Part shown: positions 2,568-64,000 of the stretch, one piece after another
Numbering within the stretch: the first letter of the stretch is position 1
Layout: the number at the start of each line of letters is the position of its first letter
Assembly: GCA_949318235.1 (NCBI GenBank)
Contig: OX439131.1
Span: 9,535,231-9,599,230, forward strand
Reading direction: 5' to 3'
From: Ecdyonurus torrentis
Lineage: Eukaryota > Arthropoda > Insecta > Ephemeroptera > Heptageniidae
Length of the DNA: 64,000 bases
Translations under genes and position numbers: made by a program
Notes under the pieces: generated by a model
What the model was told of the DNA's origin: nothing
The model's input: only the letters and a program-made list of their open reading frames with translations
The model's database searches: none

Positions 2568-2957
2568 CCTACCCCCTTAATACAGAAAATAAAAATACAA
2601 TCCTACCTTAAAGTACATGCTACCTTAATATATGCATATGTCGTAAATAAATTTTTTAAAAGCAATTTAGAATGTTCTTTTATTGAAGAAAAAATATATC
2701 AATATTTTTCTTTGATTTTATACTCAAACGGTGTAAAAAAATATTAAATTTGAGGTACTTGAATTGTAATAGCAAATTCTTTTAGGTATACTAATTTTGC
2801 ATTTTATGTCAAAAAGGGGCGTGGCCCCCAAAAAATCGCGCCTGCGGCGCAATAGGGGGCTTCGCCCCATTTCCCTGATTATGCTATTTCAACGGGTAAG
2901 GGCGCACCGCGAGTTTATCCCCCGGGTGCCTAATTTGACGGGCCGCCACTGATTAGA
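2568..2957. mobile_element. Right end of an older hAT-like element
   Basis: About 2810-2957 is a GC-rich block with the same hairpin style as the neighbouring element (ggggcgtggccccc, gcgcctgcggcgc, gggggcttcgcccc). It ends in gacgggccgccactg, whose inverse begins CAGTGGCGGCCCGTC, a hAT-like terminus. No matching left end is in the window, so it may lie before position 1. The 8-bp duplication cannot be tested. 2576-2809 is AT-rich and shows nothing else. Confidence 0.45.
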
Positions 2958-4200
2958 TATCTAGATTTAATAATATCTTAAATCTTCCTATATGCTATGC
3001 GTGGTTGTATACTTTTTTGTACTGTACCTATATCAAATGAAATTCATTATACTTCTAATACATGATACAAAAGTGAATAAGTAATATTTTTTTCTGAAGG
3101 AAAAACTTTTGAGTTACCCCGCAGTGCATTTTTTTTTTCGTTGAACTTTAAATGACACGCATATTTGCTCCTTTCTTTATCTCTTTGCGTTTTTTTTTTC
3201 TTTAAAAGCTGCATTATTCTTATGGACGTCTAAAAGAAAAAAAACTCATTATCCATTGTGTATACCTTGAAAAGGACACATTTTTGTTAAAAATTGAAAA
3301 CAGCTGTGACGAAACATTATTATACGTATATATATATAATTATTTTGTTCCGTCCTAAGAGAGAGGATATAGAGATATAATAATATAACATTACTGCACA
3401 TATGTATCCTTTTTATTTTTTATTTTTTTGGCTTTTAAATTTGCTGTCCCCGCCTTATATATTCACTACCGGTCTCTACCTAATTGCTTGCTCTTTTGTT
3501 TTTATTTCTGCTTATGTTTTGAAATTGCTCGTATATATATTATATAAACTCGGAGGGAGGTCTTTTCTCCAATGTAAAGTGGAAGTACTGTAGTATACAC
3601 GCAGGTTGCTCGCCCGGTGTTGAGTGGATTTTGTTGCTATATATTATACTTGTCTGTCTTGTGTGGTGTGGTGTGTCACTTGGTGTGTCACTTTAGAGCT
3701 CGCTGCATGGTCGCGACGTTGTAATTGTGATTACGTGGCACAAAGTAGAAATATTATCCTCGCAATGCAACTTCTTTCAAATAAGAAAATATTTCTTGTT
3801 ACAAGCTTTCCCATATATATTATGAATATATAAACATAAAATTGTTCATTTTTAACTAGAGATTTATTATGTAAATGTGTTCATTGATAACGCGACATTG
3901 TATAAAATATATAATTCATCCTTACATCAAAAATGAGTATATATTATACAGACACTAGACAAAAATCCATAAAAATTTTCAAAGTATTTGACATGTTTAC
4001 AGTTACACTGTGATAAATATTGCTGACAACACTTGAAAGTTTAACGTGCGTTTCATGTACAACTTATAGTTTCACGTCTTGCTACCTAAAAACTTCCTTT
4101 TTTCAAACTTAAATTTTTCACGTTTTGACTCGAGAAAGTTTCAAGCTGTTATGGAGTCAAAACTTTGGTGAGAGCGCTATTTATTTGACAGTAATTTTAG

Positions 4201-4340: not shown

Positions 4341-5293
4341 TGACTCGCAGACTTGAACGTACATCTGTGTTTAACACTGAATAATATGTTAAATTAAACA
4401 GAGTGCGTGGAAGTTTTGTTGTATACTTCTACGTATACTGTATACAAGAAAAAAAAAAAAAAAAAAAAAAGATCAACGAGCTGCAATTGCTTATTTTCCC
4501 ACACTCATATGTAATAATATTTTTCTATGTAACTCCTCCCGCTACCGCATAGCAGTTGTTTTATATTTCATTTGCATGGAGTATATACATAGCATATAAT
4601 ATTATAAAAATAATATATATTATATTTAAGACAACACATAATCCCTTTCAGCGTCATATTAAATATAAAGATTTTCATGTGCGCGCATTCATGCAGAATT
4701 AATACTTAACTTACGTGGAATAATAATATAATAAAGCGATGAACTAAAAGTGTATATTTGTTAAAGTTGAGTTTTCTTTTCATTTTTAATTGCATATATA
4801 CCATAAAAAGTTTTATTTGTTCATAAAAACTTTATGTCGCGTTTTGGTTTTTATATTCATTTATAATGCAATATGGAGTCAATATATAAATATATAGTTA
4901 TTTAAAATTAACAGCATGCCATTAAATAATTATTCTTTTCCGTCATGCTTTTTTTTTTATCTTTTAAAAATTTAATTTTTATATATATTATATTAATTTG
5001 TTATAGAGATGCTACAGTATACCATCTAACCGTCTATGATATAAATGTGAGAAAAAATTATAAAATATATAAAATATTATATATAAAAATATATATGGAA
5101 AAATTGTATATGTATTATAAAAATAATAAAAAAATTGAATAAAAAAAGTTTTGTCGTCGTATATAGTTTTAACTTTCGACAAGATATCTACTTTTTATAC
5201 AATCGTATAAAAAAAAAAAAAAAAAAATTCTAATAACATGAGCACATCAATACTGCACAGAAAAAAATAAGAAATTACTTTGTTATAAAGACA
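2958..5293. other. AT-rich intergenic DNA with microsatellites
   Basis: No gene is supported. A (CT)n tract at about 4199-4254 abuts a (TA)n tract at about 4265-4336. Poly(A) runs occur near 4449-4470 and 5209-5227. A modestly GC-richer patch at about 3545-3760 has GT-rich repeats (tgtggtgtggtgtg) but no convincing exon. Confidence 0.6.
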
Positions 5294-5983
5294 ACTTCCC
5301 GTAATCAGGACACAGCACTGCATGCGGCAAGGGTCATCAGGTTGATCACTGCAAGGGTCATCATAAGTTTTATAATTATGTTAATTTTGGCCCGGTATAT
5401 ACATTGAGAGTTTTAAATTTTGAATTTCTCTCTTTAGAATTTTTAAATCGCACATTTTCATAAAGTAAAAAGCACAATTCAAAAAGTATTTATATATATA
5501 TAGGACGTTAAGGAGCCCAATTTAAAGGAAACAGGTGAAAAATGTGTATTCAAAATTGACTCCAATAAGGTCTGAGTTCCACCAGAAATGGCAGTTTCTT
5601 GAAGCTGACTTTTTACAGCTTGGATTAAAATGACATTTTACTGCATATTTAAAATGTTGCGACAGTCAGAAACTGCAATTTCTGGTGGAATCCAAACCCT
5701 CATTTGGAGTCAACTTTGCGCACATTTTTCACCACTTTTCTTTAAATATGGCTCCTTAACGTCCTAAATACTTTTTGAGTTGTGCTTTTTACTATGATGA
5801 TGTGCGATTTAACGTATTTTAACAATTCTGAAGTGAGAAGTTCAAAATTTAAAAACCTTAATTTAACATGGTAAGCCCTATGCCGCAGGCCAAACTTAAC
5901 ATAAAACTTAATTATGATGACCCTTGCCAATGATCAACCTGGTGACTTTTGCCAGTGCTGTGTACGTCCTGATTATGTGAAAG
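5294..5983. mobile_element. Foldback element, about 690 bp
   Basis: Long imperfect inverted repeat. The left side begins about taatcaggac (5302) with gggtcatcaggttgatcac. The right side has the inverse, gatcaacctggtgac, then gtcctgatta (ends 5975). Inner matches include aaagtaaaaagcacaa against ttgtgctttttact, and ggacgttaaggagcc against ggctccttaacgtcc. The centre holds a second inverted pair built on ccaccagaaatggcag and its inverse. The short minus-strand frame here is a by-product of the arms. Exact ends and target duplication are uncertain. Confidence 0.75.
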
Positions 5984-14100: not shown

Positions 14101-17100
14101 ATGTCTTCTAATTCTTATCATTTTTTTTTATTTTTTATTCATTATTAATTATTACCCAGTTTTTCTTTTTCACTATGGCATTTTTTTAACGTAAACGCAG
14201 ATTATGTAATATACTTTCGCATATAAAAAACCAGTTTGGTGTGCAATGTCAGTGTTATAATGTTTTGATGTACGTGTGTTGCAGAGAGGAGAGCGAGAAG
14301 GAGGAAAGCAAGAGCACATCCAAAGAGGACGAAGTAGTAGTAAAACAGGAACCGGAAGCAAAGAAAGAGCATGAGGTGAGACTGATGAATATATTGTCAA
14401 ATATTTCGGGCTGGGAAAATAAAATGAGAAAAACAGGGGACGTGGTATGTGTATAGTATATCTCTTTTGGTATAAAATTAGTATATTATATTTCTGCTTT
14501 ATTTCAAATCAATCTAAATTTAAATCAATCTCTGTTTAAGAACAATCACAAGCGCTTTTTGCATTGCCCCGCGGCTGTTGGGATGAAACACTTAAAGAAG
14601 TTTATTCGACTAAAATTTGGTCTCAGTCCTGAATACAAGGTGGATATTATTTATGAAGGTGAATGTTTGAGAGATGAGTACACATTGATGGACGTTGCTT
14701 ATACGTTTTCTTGGAAAAGGGTAAGTTTACCACGTTTAATTTAAAAATTATAGTTCTATATGATCTTTTTTAAATTGCTTCTAATAAAATTACTTTTGTG
14801 TTAACAGAAATCCGCGATGCGATTTCATTATCGTATTTATGAACGTCCCAAATACGTGCCAAAGTTTTCTGAGAGTACAGCTGACCGTACTGTTACTGAT
14901 AACAACGATGAGCCTCCCATGAAACGACTTCGACTTCTTTCTTCTGATGGTGCTAATAGTAGTTCACCATCTACTTCCACTTCCAGCAATGCCCCGGCCA
15001 ATTCAACTGACCAGAAACCCTCTCAGCCCCCCGCGGAACCAGTTGAAACTGCGCAACCCCCCTCCAACCTTGCTTCCGAAAAATCTGAACCTATGGAAGT
15101 AGAAGTTCCCAAACCAAAAATAAAGGAAGAGAAAAGATCGCGATCTCGCTCCACGGAACTTCAAAGACTAGAGGCGACTGCAACTCCTATATCTCGCCCT
15201 AAGACTCCAGTAGCGCGTCCTAAAACACCTGTGTCCCGCCCCAAGACTCCAGTTTCACGACCCAAGACCCCAAAACCTCCCAAGGAGAAAAAAGACACCC
15301 CACGTGCAGAGTCCAAGCGAGATTCCTCCACGAGTACACCAAAAACTTTATCCCAGCCCCCTAAGCCTATTATGCCAGGGCAAAAACCACCCTCTCAAAC
15401 TGCCTTACTTTTGCAACAAAGAATCATGCAACAACGTCAACAACAACAACAAAAGATGCAATTACAAAAACAACAGCAACAAAAAATGCTCTTACAAAAA
15501 CAGCAATTCCATCAAAAACAAATTCCTCAATTAAATAAATTACAAACATCTCAAAAACAGCTACAGCAAATGAAATTAAATCGCACTAATTCTTCTCCCT
15601 CAACAACGGTGACCAAGGGTCCATCAGTGACTACCTCAACACAGTCTACCTCAAAACCAGCTCCTTCAGTTCAAACGATGTTAAGTTCCGCTAAACCTCA
15701 AACTCCCCCAGCTAGTAAACCCGCAGCCCCGGTACCCAACACTACAAAACCAGTGACCACAAGCGCTCCAACTAAAACTGTTTCCACTTCCCCTGTGTCA
15801 AAGCCGAGCACCTCGCAACCCGCTATGAGCAAGCCAGTGCAGACTCCGACCCCTAAGCCAACTCCTAGTGCAGGTAAACCAGTGCCAAGCCCCATGAAAC
15901 CCTCACCTAGTACGGTAAAACCTTCACTTAGTACCGTAAAACCATCACCTAGTACCGTAAAACCATCACCCAGTACCGTGAAACAAACACCCACTACGGT
16001 AAAACCCTCACCCAATACGGTAAAGCCCACATCCACTATTGTAAAGCCCTCACCCACTGCTGTAAAACCCTCACCCACTGCTGTAAAACCCGCACCCACT
16101 ACCGTAAAACCCGCACTCACTACGGTAAAACCCACACCCAGCACCGTAAAACCTTCGCCCAGTACCGTAAAACCATCACCTGGCATAGCCAAACCCCCAC
16201 CAAGCAATGCGCACGCAAATGGAAAACTGGCAACATCGCCTACTTCTCCAAAACCCACAGTACAGCTGAGTAATGAACCACGACGTAGTGACAGCCTTAT
16301 AGAGAAAGAAAAGATGAGTCCAGTGGTAATTATTGAGAGGCACCAAAAGAAATCTCAAAGTGAAAAGTCCAGCTCAAGTGTACAAAAAGACAAGAATACT
16401 CCACCAGCAAAACCTAAGCAATCTAAGATTGGTCCAGAAACTACGCTCACCGTAGCTCCGAGTGGATCTGACACTAAACTGAGACTAATCAAACGTCCCG
16501 CCACGAGCCCTGCTTCCGGCGTACCAGTAGCAAAGAAAATTGCCTCTGAGACTCCAAAGCCAGCGACGAGTACACCAGCATTATCGGAGCCACTAGAAAT
16601 CCGCACAACTGGTGATAAGCCTCGACACGATGATTTTGGAGCTCTTGATTTATCGGGAAAATCTTCGCGGAAGAGCGACTCTCCTTGCAGCAGTCACAGC
16701 AGTGGAGCAGCTTCTCCTCCCGCTCCCTCACCTCCTGAACCCCGTACCTCTCCTGCACCCAAACCAACACCACCTACACCCACCCCGCCCCCACCTCGCG
16801 CCCAAAGCTCGAGCACCAAACCAAGCAAAAGTCAGAGTCCACAGACCATTATGTCAATAGCGCAAACTTTGGTGAACCGTCAGCTGTCAAATCTTGGGTT
16901 TAACGGAGAAGGAAGTCGGTCCCCTAACTCACCACATTCTCAGGGCTCATCGAGTCCCTCTCAAAATTCCACTGGCGTGCCCGGTATGAGTTTCCGCAAT
17001 TTGATGACACTAAGCGATACGGCAGTTCAGCTACGTAATAACATGCAAAGTCCGCTACAGCCGCAACCTCAGCATCGTACACCCACTCCCCAGCCTCGCA

Positions 17101-17573
17101 TGCGACTACCATCACCGCAGCAACATTCCTCCGTAAGGCCAACTTTCAACAAAACCTCTACGTCAAGTGGAAACATGAAAAGTCCTCCTCCTCCTCCAAT
17201 CCGCATCCCCACAATTTCAAATATGATTAAATCTATGCCTCAAGTGCGAGAAAGTAACACAATGATGTCAGTATCTCGTGTCTCTAGAATCAATGACATT
17301 TTCCCCGCTCCTAACCAGGTAAAACCTGGACCTAATCAATCAGTGAGGCATATTCCCAACCCTGCATTACTTTTCCGACAGCAAGCAAATAGAATGCAGC
17401 AACCTCAACCACCCTCTTGTAAAGATGAAATTACAATCACTCCTGCAAGAAACCCCTCTAATCCTCCGCTTTCCTCAATTCGCAAGATCGAAAACTTGAC
17501 TCGGAACATCGGCGAGGGAAAAGCAGTAACCACGGGGCTTGGAGCTCGAGCTACAGCAGAGGCAACGCAATGA
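9389..17573 (+). CDS. Psc: Psc-like Polycomb group RING finger protein (PRC1 subunit), seven coding exons
   Basis: Coding exons: 9389-9527 (exon begins 9369), 12638-12734, 12891-12994, 13174-13279, 14285-14375, 14541-14720, 14808-17573. All introns are GT-AG and every join stays in frame, giving 1160 residues. The ATG at 9389 is the first in-frame ATG after the 9368 acceptor and lies 26 residues before the RING, as in the family. The C3HC4 RING has C27, C30, C43, H45, C48, C51, C62 and C65. Residues about 70-148 follow the PCGF pattern (VHKTKPL, then [13 protein letters not shown]). The RAWUL domain spans about 180-252. The last exon encodes a disordered tail: SRPKTPV repeats (about 368-396), a Q-rich stretch (about 441-490), 14 heptads (604-701), an ALDLS motif (851-855) and P-rich segments. 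In flies Psc pairs with Sce/RING for H2A ubiquitylation and compacts chromatin through its tail. Tail length favours Psc/Su(z)2 over short PCGF4-like proteins; which of the two it matches is uncertain. Confidence 0.93.
9528..12637 (+). other. Psc intron 1 with a TATA-containing GC-rich patch
   Basis: This 3.1-kb intron runs from donor gtaagt to acceptor atttcag. It is mostly AT-rich. It contains (GA)n at about 11093-11140 and (CT)n at about 11522-11546. A GC-rich patch at about 11745-12005 includes tatataaaag (about 11939-11948) followed by cgcgcgcg, resembling a TATA core promoter. Short frames there on both strands look like chance. No exon is recognised. Confidence 0.55.
15900..16193 (+). 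repeat. Coding 21-bp minisatellite (14 heptads) in Psc
   Basis: Fourteen in-frame 21-bp units encode heptads of the form PSPSTVK with variants ([42 protein letters not shown]), residues 604-701. The lysine is invariant and every change keeps the frame, so the array is under coding constraint. It is basic and proline-rich, recalling histone H1-like tails. A long open frame on the opposite strand (15698-16258) is its shadow. Confidence 0.9.
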
Positions 17574-22503: not shown

Positions 22504-23130
22504 TTATATATATATACTTATCTTTATATACTTATCTTTATATATATATATATGGAAACTATAGAAATAAACTTTGTAAAAAACTTGGAATGGCGTGTTT
22601 TAACATAAAAATTAAATGTTTTGAAATAATTATCTCAAATCTTATGCATAATACTATACTTATAAAATCTAACTGGTGCATGGAGCATCGTTTATACATG
22701 CATATATACACTCTGGCCAAAAAACAAGGTCGTTCCCGCCAAAAGCTGTTCTGCGGTGAAAAACCAATCAAAGAGCGTGTTAACCTACTAGCCAATCCCA
22801 GTTGACTTTACATTGTTAATTACACTGTATCCGCTTGAACTAGTATTGGGAGAAGTGTACATTTGAAGTTCTTTTTATATATTTTATAGAATTTTTGCAT
22901 AGAATATATATATTTTTTTAAAGTCAATCTTTGTATCTATAAAAAAATAAATAATATATATAATAAATTTAAAAAATCTCTCATCATGTGGAGAGCTGTA
23001 TATATACGCTCTCGATTTACTTCTCGGTGCCGAATTCATTGTTAAGTCTTATATGGATCTCGATACCGAGAATGAAACGAGAGCTTATGGAACAGCCCCC
23101 CTGATCGCCACCAAAATAAACTATATCTAC
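22333..23130. promoter_or_regulatory. Promoter-like patch (E2F site and two CCAAT boxes) in AT-rich DNA
   Basis: A TA-rich microsatellite lies at about 22470-22553. At about 22733-22744 is TTCCCGCCAAAA, a full E2F consensus. Within the next 70 bp come two CCAAT motifs in the same orientation (aaccaatc about 22760; gccaatcc about 22791). This arrangement is typical of promoters of proliferation genes, but no exon is recognised nearby on either strand. It could be chance or transposon-derived. Confidence 0.3.
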
Positions 23131-23765
23131 GTCAGGTCTGAGAAGGGCCAAAAATTTGACATTTAAAAATTAAAAAATTCTGAAGTTAATTTTTTGTTGG
23201 AACTGATATCTCATATTAATATGCTCTTAAAGTTAAAAATAGATGAAATTTCATCAGTTATTCCAAAAAAAAATTCTCTGTAGCTAAAATGAGAGTTATA
23301 CCAACTAAGACCCCTCTCTTTTATTTTGCATACCCCGCATACCCGTTGTTCCTATTTGTCATATCTTGTGTTATATTGTACTATATTATTATGTAAGGTC
23401 CAATATTTTATTTTAAAAAATTGTTTAGTTTCTTTATTTAAACACAGAAATCTTTTCCCACTTGTTTCATGCTTTTATTAAAGCAAAAAGTTTCGATAAC
23501 TAAAATATAAAACTGATCGAACTGATATGTCATACTATTACTCTTATACTTAAATTTCAAATTAAATTACTACACTTATCTTTTCAATCTATATAATATA
23601 CTGTTTTGCATTTTTATCCACTGAAAAAAATTGTATTGCAATTTACATTTTTGTTTATAAACAAAATATTTCAGCAAAAAAGTTATTAGAAGTAGAGTTT
23701 CGTGTTTCAAATAAATTGTGTAAATTTAAGACGTATAAAATAAATAAGAAATAGTTGACAACAAG

Positions 23766-23796
<31 letters not shown>

Positions 23797-24952
23797 GGAG
23801 AGCATAAAATACCAACAAAGTGCTAGCAGACGATTTTGTGTTGCTGTCTTGTTTTAACAATGCTTTCTTATGAGGGAATGAAGAACCTGCAATTCTATAG
23901 TTAAAAAATTTCCTGACACTGAAAATTTTACTGTATTTTACTGAGAGCTTTTGTTTTCCTGAATTTCAACAAAAGAGTTTTTCATCGTCATCCAAATGCC
24001 TTCATATCAGGTAAACAAAAAAATAAAAGCTTATAAAGAAGTGTAAGCTTGTATAAGGCCGCAATAAAATTCCAGTATGAAGAATCTTTTCTAATTCCAG
24101 TATGATTGATTTCCCCTCAATAATTTAAGTTTTAAATTAAGACATAACACAAAGTCATCTGTTATCACTTCGATGGTATTGTTGGGTTCTCAGTCTGTTT
24201 GTTTCTCAAAACTCCCTTTTGCAATTCTGCTATTGTGTAACAATTAGTAGCCTAATCCTTGTACGTTCAAAAAATATGAATTATGCTTTTTAGAAGAAAA
24301 AAATCAATCTTTAAATTGTGTACTGCCAAAATTTTTATTTATATAGAACAAAATAAAAATTTTAATGTCTGCTACTGAATTTGGCTTCCGTTGGCTTCAT
24401 TAAAAAAGAGTGATAAAAAAAATAACAATAATAATAAGAGCAGAAAATAAAAATCATTATATAATTTTTAAAATCCGTCATCTTAATTTATTCCTAAAAC
24501 TAAAAATCTTTCGATTATTAATGAAGAATTTCCAAGATTTGTCAGCGTTACAAAAAGCCATAAGCAAATATTAATGATTAAATTATATTTAATATTTGCT
24601 TGGCTTTGAACGTTCACAAATCTTGGAAATTCTTCATTATTAATCAAAAGATTTTTATTTTTTAAGAATAAATTTCGATGACTGATTTTAAAAATTAGGG
24701 TGATTCTTATTTTCTGCTCTTATAGTGTTATGTTAAAGGAAAAAATGCAACCCTTAAAATACAAGATAAAAACAAAAAAATTACTATAGAAATATCGCAC
24801 CAAATCGTGTATTTTCTAACTCAAATTTCAAAAAAAATTTACGTGGGGTATCCCCCGCACCCCCGGCAGGGGGGTGTCCCTCCCTGAACCCCCCTTAATG
24901 GAGTGTTAGCCTTGGACCCCCCCCCCGTCACAAAATCCTGCATACGCCACTG
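23131..24952. mobile_element. hAT-like element copy A (paralogue of 51660-53682)
   Basis: From cgtcaggtctgagaagggcc onward this is clearly similar along its whole length to 51723-53682, with small indels. It shares a poly(A) run, the tgctagcagacgatt segment, and an internal hairpin (aagaatttccaagatttg near 24526, inverse near 24620). The right end is GC-rich with C-runs and ends catacgccactg at 24952; the inverse of this is a CAGTGGCGTATG hAT-like terminus. The matching left end is missing or replaced, so this copy is probably 5'-truncated. No transposase frame is seen. Confidence 0.7.
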
Positions 24953-51659: not shown

Positions 51660-52445
51660 CAGTAGCGTATTTACGGGGGGGGGGGGGGTTAGGGGTCCGG
51701 ACACTCCGGACCCCCCTCCCCCGTCAGGTCTGAGAAGGGCCAAAAATTTGACATTTTAAAATTAAAAAATTCTGAGGTTAAATTTTTTTTTTGGAACTGA
51801 TATCTCAATAATAAGCTCTTAAAGTGTTAAAAATAGATGAAATTTCATCAGTTATTCAAAAAAAAATCTCTGTATATAGCTAAAATGAGAGTTACCAACT
51901 ATAAGACCCCTCTCTTATATTTTATATATAGGCATACCCGTTTTTTCTATTTGTCATATCTTGTGTTATATTAATTAAGTACCATATAATAAAGAATATA
52001 CTTGTACTTGATTGTACTATGTATATAAGGTCCAATATTTTATTTTAACAAATCGTTTAGTTTCTTTATATATTTAAACACAGAAATCTTTTCCCACTTG
52101 TTTCATGCTTTTATTAGATAACAAAAAGTTTCGATAATTAAAATATAAAACTGATCGAACTGTCATAATATTACCACTATTATGCTATTACTCTTATACT
52201 TAAATTTCAAATTAAATGACTATACATTTATCTTCAGAATTTATACTACTCGCATTTTTATCCACTGAAAAAAAAAAGACTATATATATATATTTTTTTG
52301 TATTGCAATCTACATTTTTGTTTATAAACAAAATATAACAGCAAAAAAGTTATTAGAAGTAGAAGTTTCATCTTTCAAATAAATTGTGTAAATTTAAGGC
52401 GTATAAAATGAATAAGAAATATAGTAAACAACTTGTAAGGGGTTT

Positions 52446-52505
<60 letters not shown>

Positions 52506-53682
52506 TGCAGAGCACAAAATACTATATAACAAAAGTGCTAGCAGACGATTGATTTTGTGTTCCTGTCTTATTTTAACAATGCTTTCTTATGAGGGAATGA
52601 AGCACCTATAACTCTAGTTAAAAAATTTCCTGACACTGAAAATTTTACTGTATATTTTACTGAGAGCTTTTGTTTTCCTGCGAATTTCAACTAATTATTT
52701 TTTCATCGTCATCCAAATGCCTTCATATCAGGTAAACAAAAGCTTATAAAGATGTGTAAGCTTGTATAAAGGCCGCAGTGAAAATTCAGTATGAAGAAAC
52801 TTTTCTAATTCCGGTATGATTGATTCCCCCACAATAAATTACGTTTTAAATCAAGACATAACACAAAGTCATCTGCTATATCACTTCTATGGTATTGTTG
52901 TGTTCTGAGTCTGTTTATTTCTCAAAACTCCCTTTTGCAATTCTGCTATTGTGCAACAATTAGCCTAGCCTAATCCTTGTACGTACGTTCAAAAAAATAT
53001 GAATTATGCTGTTTAGAAAAAACAAATCAATCCCTTTAAATTTGTTGCTGCCAAAAATTTTATTTATAGAACAAAATAAAAATTGTAATGTCTGCTACTG
53101 AATTTCATGGCTTCCGTTGGGCCTCATTTGTTAAAAAAAGTGATAAAAATTTAAAAAATATATCTAAAAATAATAAGAGCAGAAAATAAAAATCTTCAAA
53201 TTTTTTAAATCCGTCATCTTAATTTATTCTTAAAACAAAAATCTTTCGATTAATAATGAAGAATTTCCCAGATTTGTGGGCGTTACAAAAAGCCAAAAGC
53301 AAATATTATAATGATTAAGTTATATTTAATATTTGCTTGGCTTGAACGTTCACAAATCTTGGAAATTCTTTATTATTAATCAAAAGATTTTTATTTTTTA
53401 AGAATAAATTTAGATGACTGATTTTAAAATTAGGATGATTGTTATTTTCTGTTCTTATAGTATATTGTTATAGGGAAAAAATGCAAACCCAAAAAATACA
53501 AGATAAAAAAAGAAAAAAAAGACTAGAAATATCGCACCAAATCGTGTATTTTCTAACTCAAATTTCAAACTTTTTTGCGGGGGATACCCCCGCACCACCG
53601 GCAGGGGGGTGTCCCCCCCTGCACCCCCCCTCAATGGAATGTTAGCCTTGGACCCCGTCACAAAATCCTGCATACGCCACTA
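51660..53682. mobile_element. hAT-like element copy B (about 2 kb)
   Basis: Starts CAGTAGCGTATTTAC with a G-run and a palindrome (ggtccggacactccggacc). It ends cctgcatacgccact, the inverse of a CAGTGGCGTATGCAGG terminus. The interior parallels 23131-24952, including a 54-nt poly(A) at about 52449-52502, an internal hairpin (about 53240-53395), and C-rich hairpins at 53578-53640. TA-rich flanks prevent a clear 8-bp duplication call. No transposase frame. Confidence 0.7.
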
Positions 53683-62933: not shown

Positions 62934-63288
62934 GTAATATTTATTTGTTTATTCGTTTTAGCAGTTATATTGATTTTTAGATCAAAATTTCAATCAGAAC
63001 AAAATCTTTTGAACTGATCAGTAATCTGTTTGATCAAGCCATTTTTATTATTATTATTATTACAGTATTATTGTTTTTTTAATTATCTTTATTTAAATTA
63101 GATCACTTTTGGAGCCATGATCGATCTAAATTTACAAGTCCATAAGTTCAAAAAATTTAAACACTATATATTAGCTATGTTATTCACCTAAAATTAGAAA
63201 GCAACTGTAGTTAGGAACATATTATAAAGTGTTTCATATTTCAAGTCCAGAGTGTTAATAGTTTCTATAAATAATAATATAATATATA

Positions 63289-63852
63289 GGAAAAAACCAT
63301 CGCGGTTGGCATTAATTACGTTTAAAAAAATAATTAGAAAATAGTTGGTAGAGATTAGAGCACGTTGAATTGAAAATTAATAAAACGCGAAAATTCTCTA
63401 ATTTAAATAGTAAATTGGGACTAGGGATGCAAATCATTATAGCTTGCGCTAAATAAAAATAGACGTTAAAAGGGATGAGGGGTATAGTGTCTCTAGCTGT
63501 ACAGAGCTCTCTGCAGAGCCTTACTGATGAGTGCTAGGTAAAGGACGAAACCGGTCTAAGGCCAAGAGTAAGTCTGATACTGTTTTATAATGTTGTGCCT
63601 TTGATGTAGTATGAGAACGTGAGATGTTAGGTATATCGTATTTTACATTGACACTATACCCCTCATCCCTTTTAACGTCTATTTTTATTTAGCGCAAGCT
63701 ATAATGATTTGCATCCCTAGTCCCAATTTACTATTTAAATTAGAGAATTTTCGCGTTTTATTAATTTTCAATTCAACGTGCTCTAATCTCTACCAACTAT
63801 TTTCTAATTATTTTTTTAAAAGTAATTAATGCCAACCGCGATGGTTTTTTCC
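63289..63852. mobile_element. Inverted-repeat element with a ribozyme in its loop (TEX10 intron)
   Basis: The arms at 63289-63491 and 63650-63852 are both 203 nt and inverse complements; I see only one mismatch (acgttta against its partner, about 63319). Terminus GGAAAAAACCATCGCGG. The flanks are TATA-like on both sides, compatible with a TA duplication. The loop of 158 nt is unique sequence containing the hammerhead motif. No protein is encoded. The near identity of the arms means a young insertion or recent conversion; an assembly artefact cannot be excluded from sequence alone. Confidence 0.85.
63509..63568 (+). ncRNA. Candidate type I hammerhead self-cleaving ribozyme
   Basis: Core boxes are in the right order: CTGATGAG (63524-63531) and CGAAAC (63546-63551), then GTC (63554-63556) with predicted cleavage after C63556. 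Inner stem I pairs GCCTTA (63518-63523) perfectly with TAAGGC (63557-63562). Beyond an asymmetric internal loop, CTC (63509-63511) can pair with GAG (63566-63568). Stem II is 63531-63535 with 63542-63546 and a 6-nt loop; one G-G mismatch (63533/63544) interrupts five pairs. Stem III is minimal, A63550-U63555 and C63551-G63554 with a 2-nt loop, as in the hammerheads of Penelope-like elements and animal retrozymes. Such short-stem-III forms often cleave better as dimers. Confidence 0.8.
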
Positions 63853-64000
63853 TATATATTATATTTATCGCAATGTCAATCTTTTTGTTTTAATATTTAT
63901 TCTTTCATTTATATTGTATTCTCGGCCCTTTTTACTTGCCAACGCCAATAAGAGCACGTACTAAATTAATTAAATTAAAAATATGCCAAAGCGCATATAT

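Follow-up and report, generated by a model that had tools for sequence, protein, structure and literature searches.

A hammerhead ribozyme in an Ecdyonurus torrentis intron, by all signs of TEX10, appears to belong to a noncoding repeat with Penelope-type ends

Minimal type I hammerhead ribozymes (HHRs) reportedly reside in the pLTRs of Penelope-like elements (PLEs), as Cervera and de la Pena in 2014 and Lunse et al. in 2017 are said to have described. According to the available sections of PMC11167929, a PLE from Anolis begins reverse transcription at two adjacent internal sites, both strands are cut and extended, and the stretch between the start sites appears as a 30-40-bp tail in a fraction of genomic copies; HHR mutants had no effect on insertion in vitro. 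Rotifer PLEs, as portrayed in the accessible part of PMC3846280, have inverted pLTRs, a 31-bp tail that is optional at one end and target duplications of 8-10 bp, and solo pLTRs are described there as well. That hammerheads occur in PLEs and in animal retrozymes is already published, to judge from excerpts of PMC7229834, PMC7761336 and PMC11167929. The metazoan retrozyme repeats have, according to the consulted portion of PMC7761336, no conserved motif from which an autonomous mover could be deduced, and PLEs have been proposed as their movers from common HHRs, tandem copies and co-occurrence (PMC7229834, in extract). Terminons are a further group of PLE-related elements with HHRs but, as outlined in the available text of PMC6431247, they are giant, coding and tied to telomeric repeats, none of which was seen in the loci read here.

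We analysed a 64,000-nt stretch of the E. torrentis genome (assembly GCA_949318235.1, contig OX439131.1, positions 9,535,231 to 9,599,230 of the forward strand), hereafter called the window. The original prediction had placed a hammerhead in a TEX10 intron, in the sense orientation and in the loop of a long inverted repeat. Its reading of two conserved boxes, a GUC triplet and a complementary inner stem I was confirmed: the core letters lie at 63524-63530 (CUGAUGA), 63547-63550 (GAAA) and 63554-63556 (GUC), the inner stem I has 6 bp (GCCUUA/UAAGGC), and a 601-base Rfam search in E-value mode matched Hammerhead_1 (26.5 bits, E 3.2e-4). The CUGANGA...GAAA...UH core and the three stems, open at stem I, are those of a type I hammerhead, except that one pair of stem II is disrupted in the window copy. 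The features of the locus are the following.

62934-64000, on to about 65233 past the window end, + strand: intron of the putative TEX10 gene that holds the insertion (GTAATA after exon end 62933; acceptor and frame-compatible next exon in locus L029)
63263-63278, no strand: left target-site duplication TCTATAAATAATAATA, the longest exact repeat between the two flanks
63276-63491, - strand: inverted arm, unit 901 back to 686, beginning with a 35-nt tail at 63276-63310 (blastn of the unit on L029)
63490-63865, + strand: first part of the direct arm, unit 526-901, with unit 867-901 (35 nt) at 63831-63865 (blastn of the unit)
63518-63562, + strand: type I hammerhead, with G-G instead of C-G in stem II (Rfam RF00163, 26.5 bits, and alignment of copies)
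63550-63555, + strand: palindromic stem III ACCGGU, without a loop of its own (sequence; position in the unit)
63556, + strand: predicted cleavage site, 3' of this C at the end of GUC (sequence; expected from the hammerhead fold)
63866-64000 within the window, + strand: second, near-full unit (unit 1-866), joined gaplessly and reaching about 64715 (L029 1097-1946)

Elsewhere in the window, a dispersed direct repeat of ~1.8 kb occupies 23130-24920 and 51722-53656, ~28.7 kb apart, with pieces that are 71-98% identical. A 922-aa open frame at 14805-17573 is rich in P, S, T and K, contains 21-nt tandem repeats and has no Pfam match.

A chance occurrence of the motif had been called very unlikely. 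Using a loose descriptor (core, GAAA, UH and six paired stem I bases, with stem II unconstrained), we found this site and no other in the window, where 300 first-order Markov simulations predict 0.07 sites per 64 kb. The bare motif by itself is thus not overwhelming; the reality of the HHR is settled by its recurrence as a conserved family. The covariance search likewise supports the hammerhead by its E-value, although 26.5 bits stay below the gathering score of 34. Scans at the gathering score gave no hit in the whole window and none in 20 loci, because this HHR family scores 25-30 bits and E-value mode is needed.

The hammerhead lies in an insertion of ~1,440 bp (63276 to ~64715) that extends beyond the window end. 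The right copy of TCTATAAATAATAATA is found at about 64715-64730, outside the window, and may overlap the element end by at most 3 nt. The HHR is indeed in the loop of a long inverted repeat: 216-bp arms (63276-63491 and 63650-63865) flank it with 1 mismatch, i.e., 215 of 216 positions are identical. Both arms derive from a 901-nt unit (family A), the length of which was taken from the tandem locus L010. This unit contains TATAAAA at 463, the hammerhead core at 560 and GGTC ending at 592, and it is noncoding, with a longest frame of 86 aa in the doubled unit. A GTAAGT that might serve as a 5' splice site follows a few bases past the HHR (window 63569-63574, unit position 604). The second unit in the intron carries the TATA box and an intact HHR at 64403-64447, beyond the window (L029 1634-1678), 885 nt downstream of the window HHR. 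In L010, a family A arm together with 148 nt of flanking sequence is tandemly repeated with a 373-nt period (2807-3552), adjoining the element; at 5228-5301, a long hairpin scores 38.1 bits to mir-3156, far under the gathering score of 76.

The weakening of stem II by a G-G pair, which had been expected to reduce activity, is real. The neighbouring HHR in the same intron has C at this site and scores 30.0 bits, also under 34, as compared to 26.5 for the window copy. Among 62 aligned copies, the C>G change is unique to the window copy, and the one other change at the site is a C>T in L019. In minimum-energy folds of 72 nt, the hammerhead stems are absent in the window copy and present in the intact copy; at 60 nt, the window copy retains stem I with stem II broken and is 4.3 kcal/mol less stable (-13.5 vs -17.8 kcal/mol for the intact copy). 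Judged from sequence and fold, the window HHR appears to be a worn copy with a stem II weakened by G-G.

By all signs, the host gene is TEX10. For the upstream exons, matches were obtained to a PDB chain that bears the name Testis-expressed protein 10 (E 6.3e-32) and to the Ipi1_N domain (E 3.8e-19). The two exons flanking the HHR gave no convincing match as queries, the best being a weak TRAPPC13_N match (0.013) below cut-off. The reading frame runs on across the intron (62934-65233), from exon end 62933 to exon start 65234, and the HHR therefore sits in a sense intron. These exon matches and the continuous frame uphold the predicted setting and orientation. Sense orientation and an intact second HHR in tandem are what a ribozyme kept by the host to regulate TEX10 might also display, and either the intact HHR or the two together could cleave the intron transcript. 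However, the window copy is decayed in stem II, and the insertion looks recent, given its nearly identical arms, and is one of many copies. Nothing found points to host use, and we consider regulation of TEX10 very improbable. The best reading is that the HHR works for the element and not for TEX10.

To place the insertion among its relatives, the genome (503 Mb, 117 contigs) was searched with the HHR-bearing window segment, and the best 40 of 1,782 first-look candidates were scored. The outer ends were compared in 41 clusters from L009-L029 and L040-L056, 30 of them head-to-head and 11 one-armed. In 27 of the 30 head-to-head clusters, one outer end lies at unit 890-901 and the other at 846-870 (at 855-870 in 23 of these), and no cluster (0/30) has the tail at both ends. 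The three exceptions are the second cluster of L040, which is short at both ends, and L025 and L055, which are broken or split. Ten of the 11 one-armed clusters end at the tail. Informative exact target duplications of 11-16 nt flank 22 of the 30 head-to-head clusters (in L015, the duplication consists of a TAT repeat); among the remainder, three duplications lie in AT repeats and are uninformative and five have 3-8 nt. The units carry the insertion structure known from PLEs, namely head-to-head copies, a 30-40-nt tail at one end and short duplications. The end difference of ~35 nt, with one site per arm, equals the published PLE tail signature. Against mobilization by a PLE stand the three head-to-head clusters without a tail plus a short end, and the 11 clusters with one arm.

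The original prediction had regarded the setting as different from that of PLEs and retrozymes. This does not hold: the inverted repeat reflects the head-to-head arrangement of a repeated element that has a PLE-type tail. With its 216-bp arms, single mismatch and flanking direct repeats, the window copy taken alone resembles a DNA transposon of the foldback or MITE-like kind, in which long terminal inverted repeats would enclose a loop with the hammerhead. Such an origin is extremely improbable, since arm lengths and inner joints vary between copies, the outer ends are unequal by ~35 nt, the duplications range over 11-16 nt and direct tandems of units occur as well. Neither fixed, matching terminal inverted repeats nor a fixed duplication length was found.

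The inner ends of the arms bear on the template of a PLE-type insertion. In the 60 arms they are scattered, and none falls within unit 588-600, the expected end of an HHR-cleaved template; the closest to the cut site is at 602, in L040. Cut linear RNA is consequently not the evident template. Of the 60 arms, 46 extend across the cut site and 12 are longer than one unit, and the 901|1 junctions between units are seamless. Long arms and seamless junctions together show that the template was multimeric or circular, and arms longer than a unit fit a circle or a multimer alike. As the copies were selected for their similarity to the segment of the window that bears the HHR, the count of crossing arms and the HHR conservation given below are biased upward.

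Over the 45-nt HHR, 62 copies (L009-L029, L040-L056 and L058) were compared with a reference that is itself a real copy, gaps being counted. The sequence of the reference unit is kept by 47 of the 62 across the whole HHR, and differences from the unit amount to 15/2,880 within the HHR vs 827/44,642 elsewhere. In the divergent loci L027 and L056, there is no difference in the HHR (0/180) vs 241/2,578 elsewhere, and the best-conserved stretches are unit 451-600 and 751-850.

A genome-wide Rfam hammerhead search, in which 74 of 32,802 candidates were scored, gave 40 places among these 74, 27 of them over cut-off. The same search in 14 control genomes gave matches in 11 at E <= 10 and none over cut-off. 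The first ten loci read from the E. torrentis search form a second family and its relatives (family B), with a 649-nt period and the order TATA-hammerhead-end as in family A. The ends of its head-to-head copies differ by 32-48 nt in 4 of the 15 loci read (L033, L036, L038 and L062). Stem III is a short palindrome in both families, ACCGGU in A and ACAGCUGU in B. In minimum-energy dimers, a double hammerhead forms in family B but not in family A, which counts against the cycle proposed below. The tails of both families have a 4-bp hairpin ahead of an invariant TTTTTTCCTA. The stability of this hairpin is not unusual (z 0.70), a further point against mobilization by a PLE, and its covariation between the families gives too little signal to be of use.

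Relatives with compensatory stem changes, by which the original prediction wished its hammerhead to be judged, were found to a limited extent. Two of the six stem I pairs are changed on both sides between families A and B, with a covariation score seen in 1 of 500 shuffles, but the count of such pairs was reached in 320 of 500. The comparison of the two families is modest evidence. In two loci, a family A head-to-head element adjoins a family B element (L032 1-1904 and L056 354-2389). L043 was considered as a single insertion joining both families and rejected, being an A copy beside or inside B sequence. All three cases are likely to be nested or adjacent insertions.

An autonomous PLE with head-to-head copies is present in the same genome. 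At E <= 10, a GIY-YIG search gave 37 places of one repeated family with 19-21 bits; these were kept from 42 rows after dropping L063, L064, C20:8956724, C1:19171261 and C4:35106392, which are without the family's match. All 12 close pairs (within 5 kb) are head-to-head. The one place of the 37 that was read has an 873-aa open frame with a reverse transcriptase (RT) piece (L068; RVT_1, E 3.2e-12) and a GIY-YIG piece (L067), the latter matching under its cut-off. The RT piece contains GLPKVHK and RYVDDTF, which we take to be PLE-like motifs. Among proteins, it has only weak RT matches (best E 0.0042), and for the endonuclease piece neither a PDB chain nor any relative was found, the protein collection searched being one that omits much longer proteins. 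The frame is followed 3' by TATATAAGG and then by a minimal HHR, for which the minimum-energy fold shows stems I and II and Rfam has no listing. At E <= 1e-3, the GIY-YIG search had given two places, neither of them the PLE family: L063, presumably an SLX1 exon as judged by eye, and L064 (C10:48233988-48234194), a 1,496-aa open frame with GIY-YIG over cut-off, outside the PLE family.

LINE-like RTs are abundant in this genome (of 2,131 RVT_1 candidates, the best 150 were scored; both frames that were read look LINE-like), and twin priming yields inverted LINE copies. These points favour a SINE-like element moved by a LINE, with inverted arms from twin priming. We regard such an origin as improbable, given that the ends have no poly-A or simple 3' repeat and that the two outer ends map to separate sites within one and the same 3' part of the unit, as expected of a PLE and not of a LINE. 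Near-identical RVT_1 frames, many of ~907 aa, are packed at C11:47.1-48.9 Mb (contig end) and C26:2.8-3.0 Mb (contig start); one guess is that they are site-specific retroelements in a repeated array.

The order of a TATA box and then an HHR recurs behind the open frame of the PLE that was read, and solo pLTRs are described for PLEs in the available part of PMC3846280. The unit may accordingly be a solo pLTR of a coding PLE family, with the insertion a deletion or truncation product and not an independent protein-less element; the scope of the survey, with the best 40 of 1,782 unit candidates scored and 1 of 37 PLE places read, also leaves room for this. We hold it to be possible but unlikely. 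A motif scan of open frames found no RT or GIY-YIG in the unit arrays of the loci read, the one RT seen, in L003/L027, being LINE-like by eye and located in the flank. The same scan found no PLE frame in 7-kb regions around five further HHR matches. In several loci, units follow one another in direct tandem with no coding sequence in between. The 3' end of the PLE that was read differs, and its piece L067 has no significant similarity to units A and B (best E 0.11). This lack of significant shared sequence also means that a role of the PLE in moving units A and B is one that we infer.

Taken together, we consider it likely that the TEX10 intron holds one insertion of a non-autonomous, noncoding, retrozyme-like element with a TATA-type promoter and a type I HHR, mobilized by the reverse transcriptase and endonuclease of a PLE. 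The unit resembles PLEs, as far as PMC11167929 and PMC3846280 are accessible, in its head-to-head inverted copies, 30-40-nt tail at one end, target duplications, TATA box, HHR and palindromic stem III. It differs in having no open frame, hence no PLE-type RT and GIY-YIG of its own, and in a stem I longer than that in the HHR of the PLE read here. With the metazoan non-LTR retrozymes, as presented in portions of PMC7229834 and PMC7761336, it shares protein-less tandem repeats, a type I HHR and larger target duplications (> 4 bp). However, the repeats there have about 150-450 nt, as opposed to 901 or 649 nt here, and head-to-head ends with a tail are not described for retrozymes in those portions. 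Circular RNA has been proposed for retrozymes; for the present unit, a circle is one of the two templates that the long arms would fit.

A plausible cycle would start with transcription of the units, as multimers where they are in tandem, as the TATA box and tandem copies suggest. The hammerheads, probably dimeric through the palindromic stem III, would then cleave the RNA to unit length, and some of the products may be circularized. On a multimeric or circular template, the putative PLE enzyme would begin cDNA synthesis on each strand of an AT-rich target, at unit ~901 for one cDNA and at ~866 for the second; these are the end sites observed. The structure of the copies indicates that the cDNAs would stop at scattered points and be joined head-to-head, leaving target duplications of 11-16 nt. 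In the TEX10 intron, the outcome would be two passenger hammerheads, one worn and one intact. The Anolis HHR mutants without an insertion effect in vitro (PMC11167929, in part) count against this reading. We give an even chance to the more specific proposal that protein-less HHR repeats are copied by Penelope machinery from multimeric or circular RNA, with two cDNAs starting ~35 nt apart at one site each.

Given that HHRs in PLEs are known, the newer part is the PLE signature on protein-less HHR repeats. No report of this was found in the literature searched, mostly abstracts, and novelty is not proven by that. The original finding, an intronic hammerhead, is best read as a transposon passenger. 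In two families of one genome, PLE-type integration has left its structural trace on protein-less HHR units in the form of the tail and the head-to-head ends. The rule of one tail and one short end (27/30, with no tail/tail cluster) is a testable statement on how two cDNAs pair in PLE integration. If the proposal is true, it would identify what moves the retrozyme-like repeats of this animal and supply a pairing rule for PLE integration, and it may offer a lead on the spread of ribozyme-carrying repeats in animal genomes.
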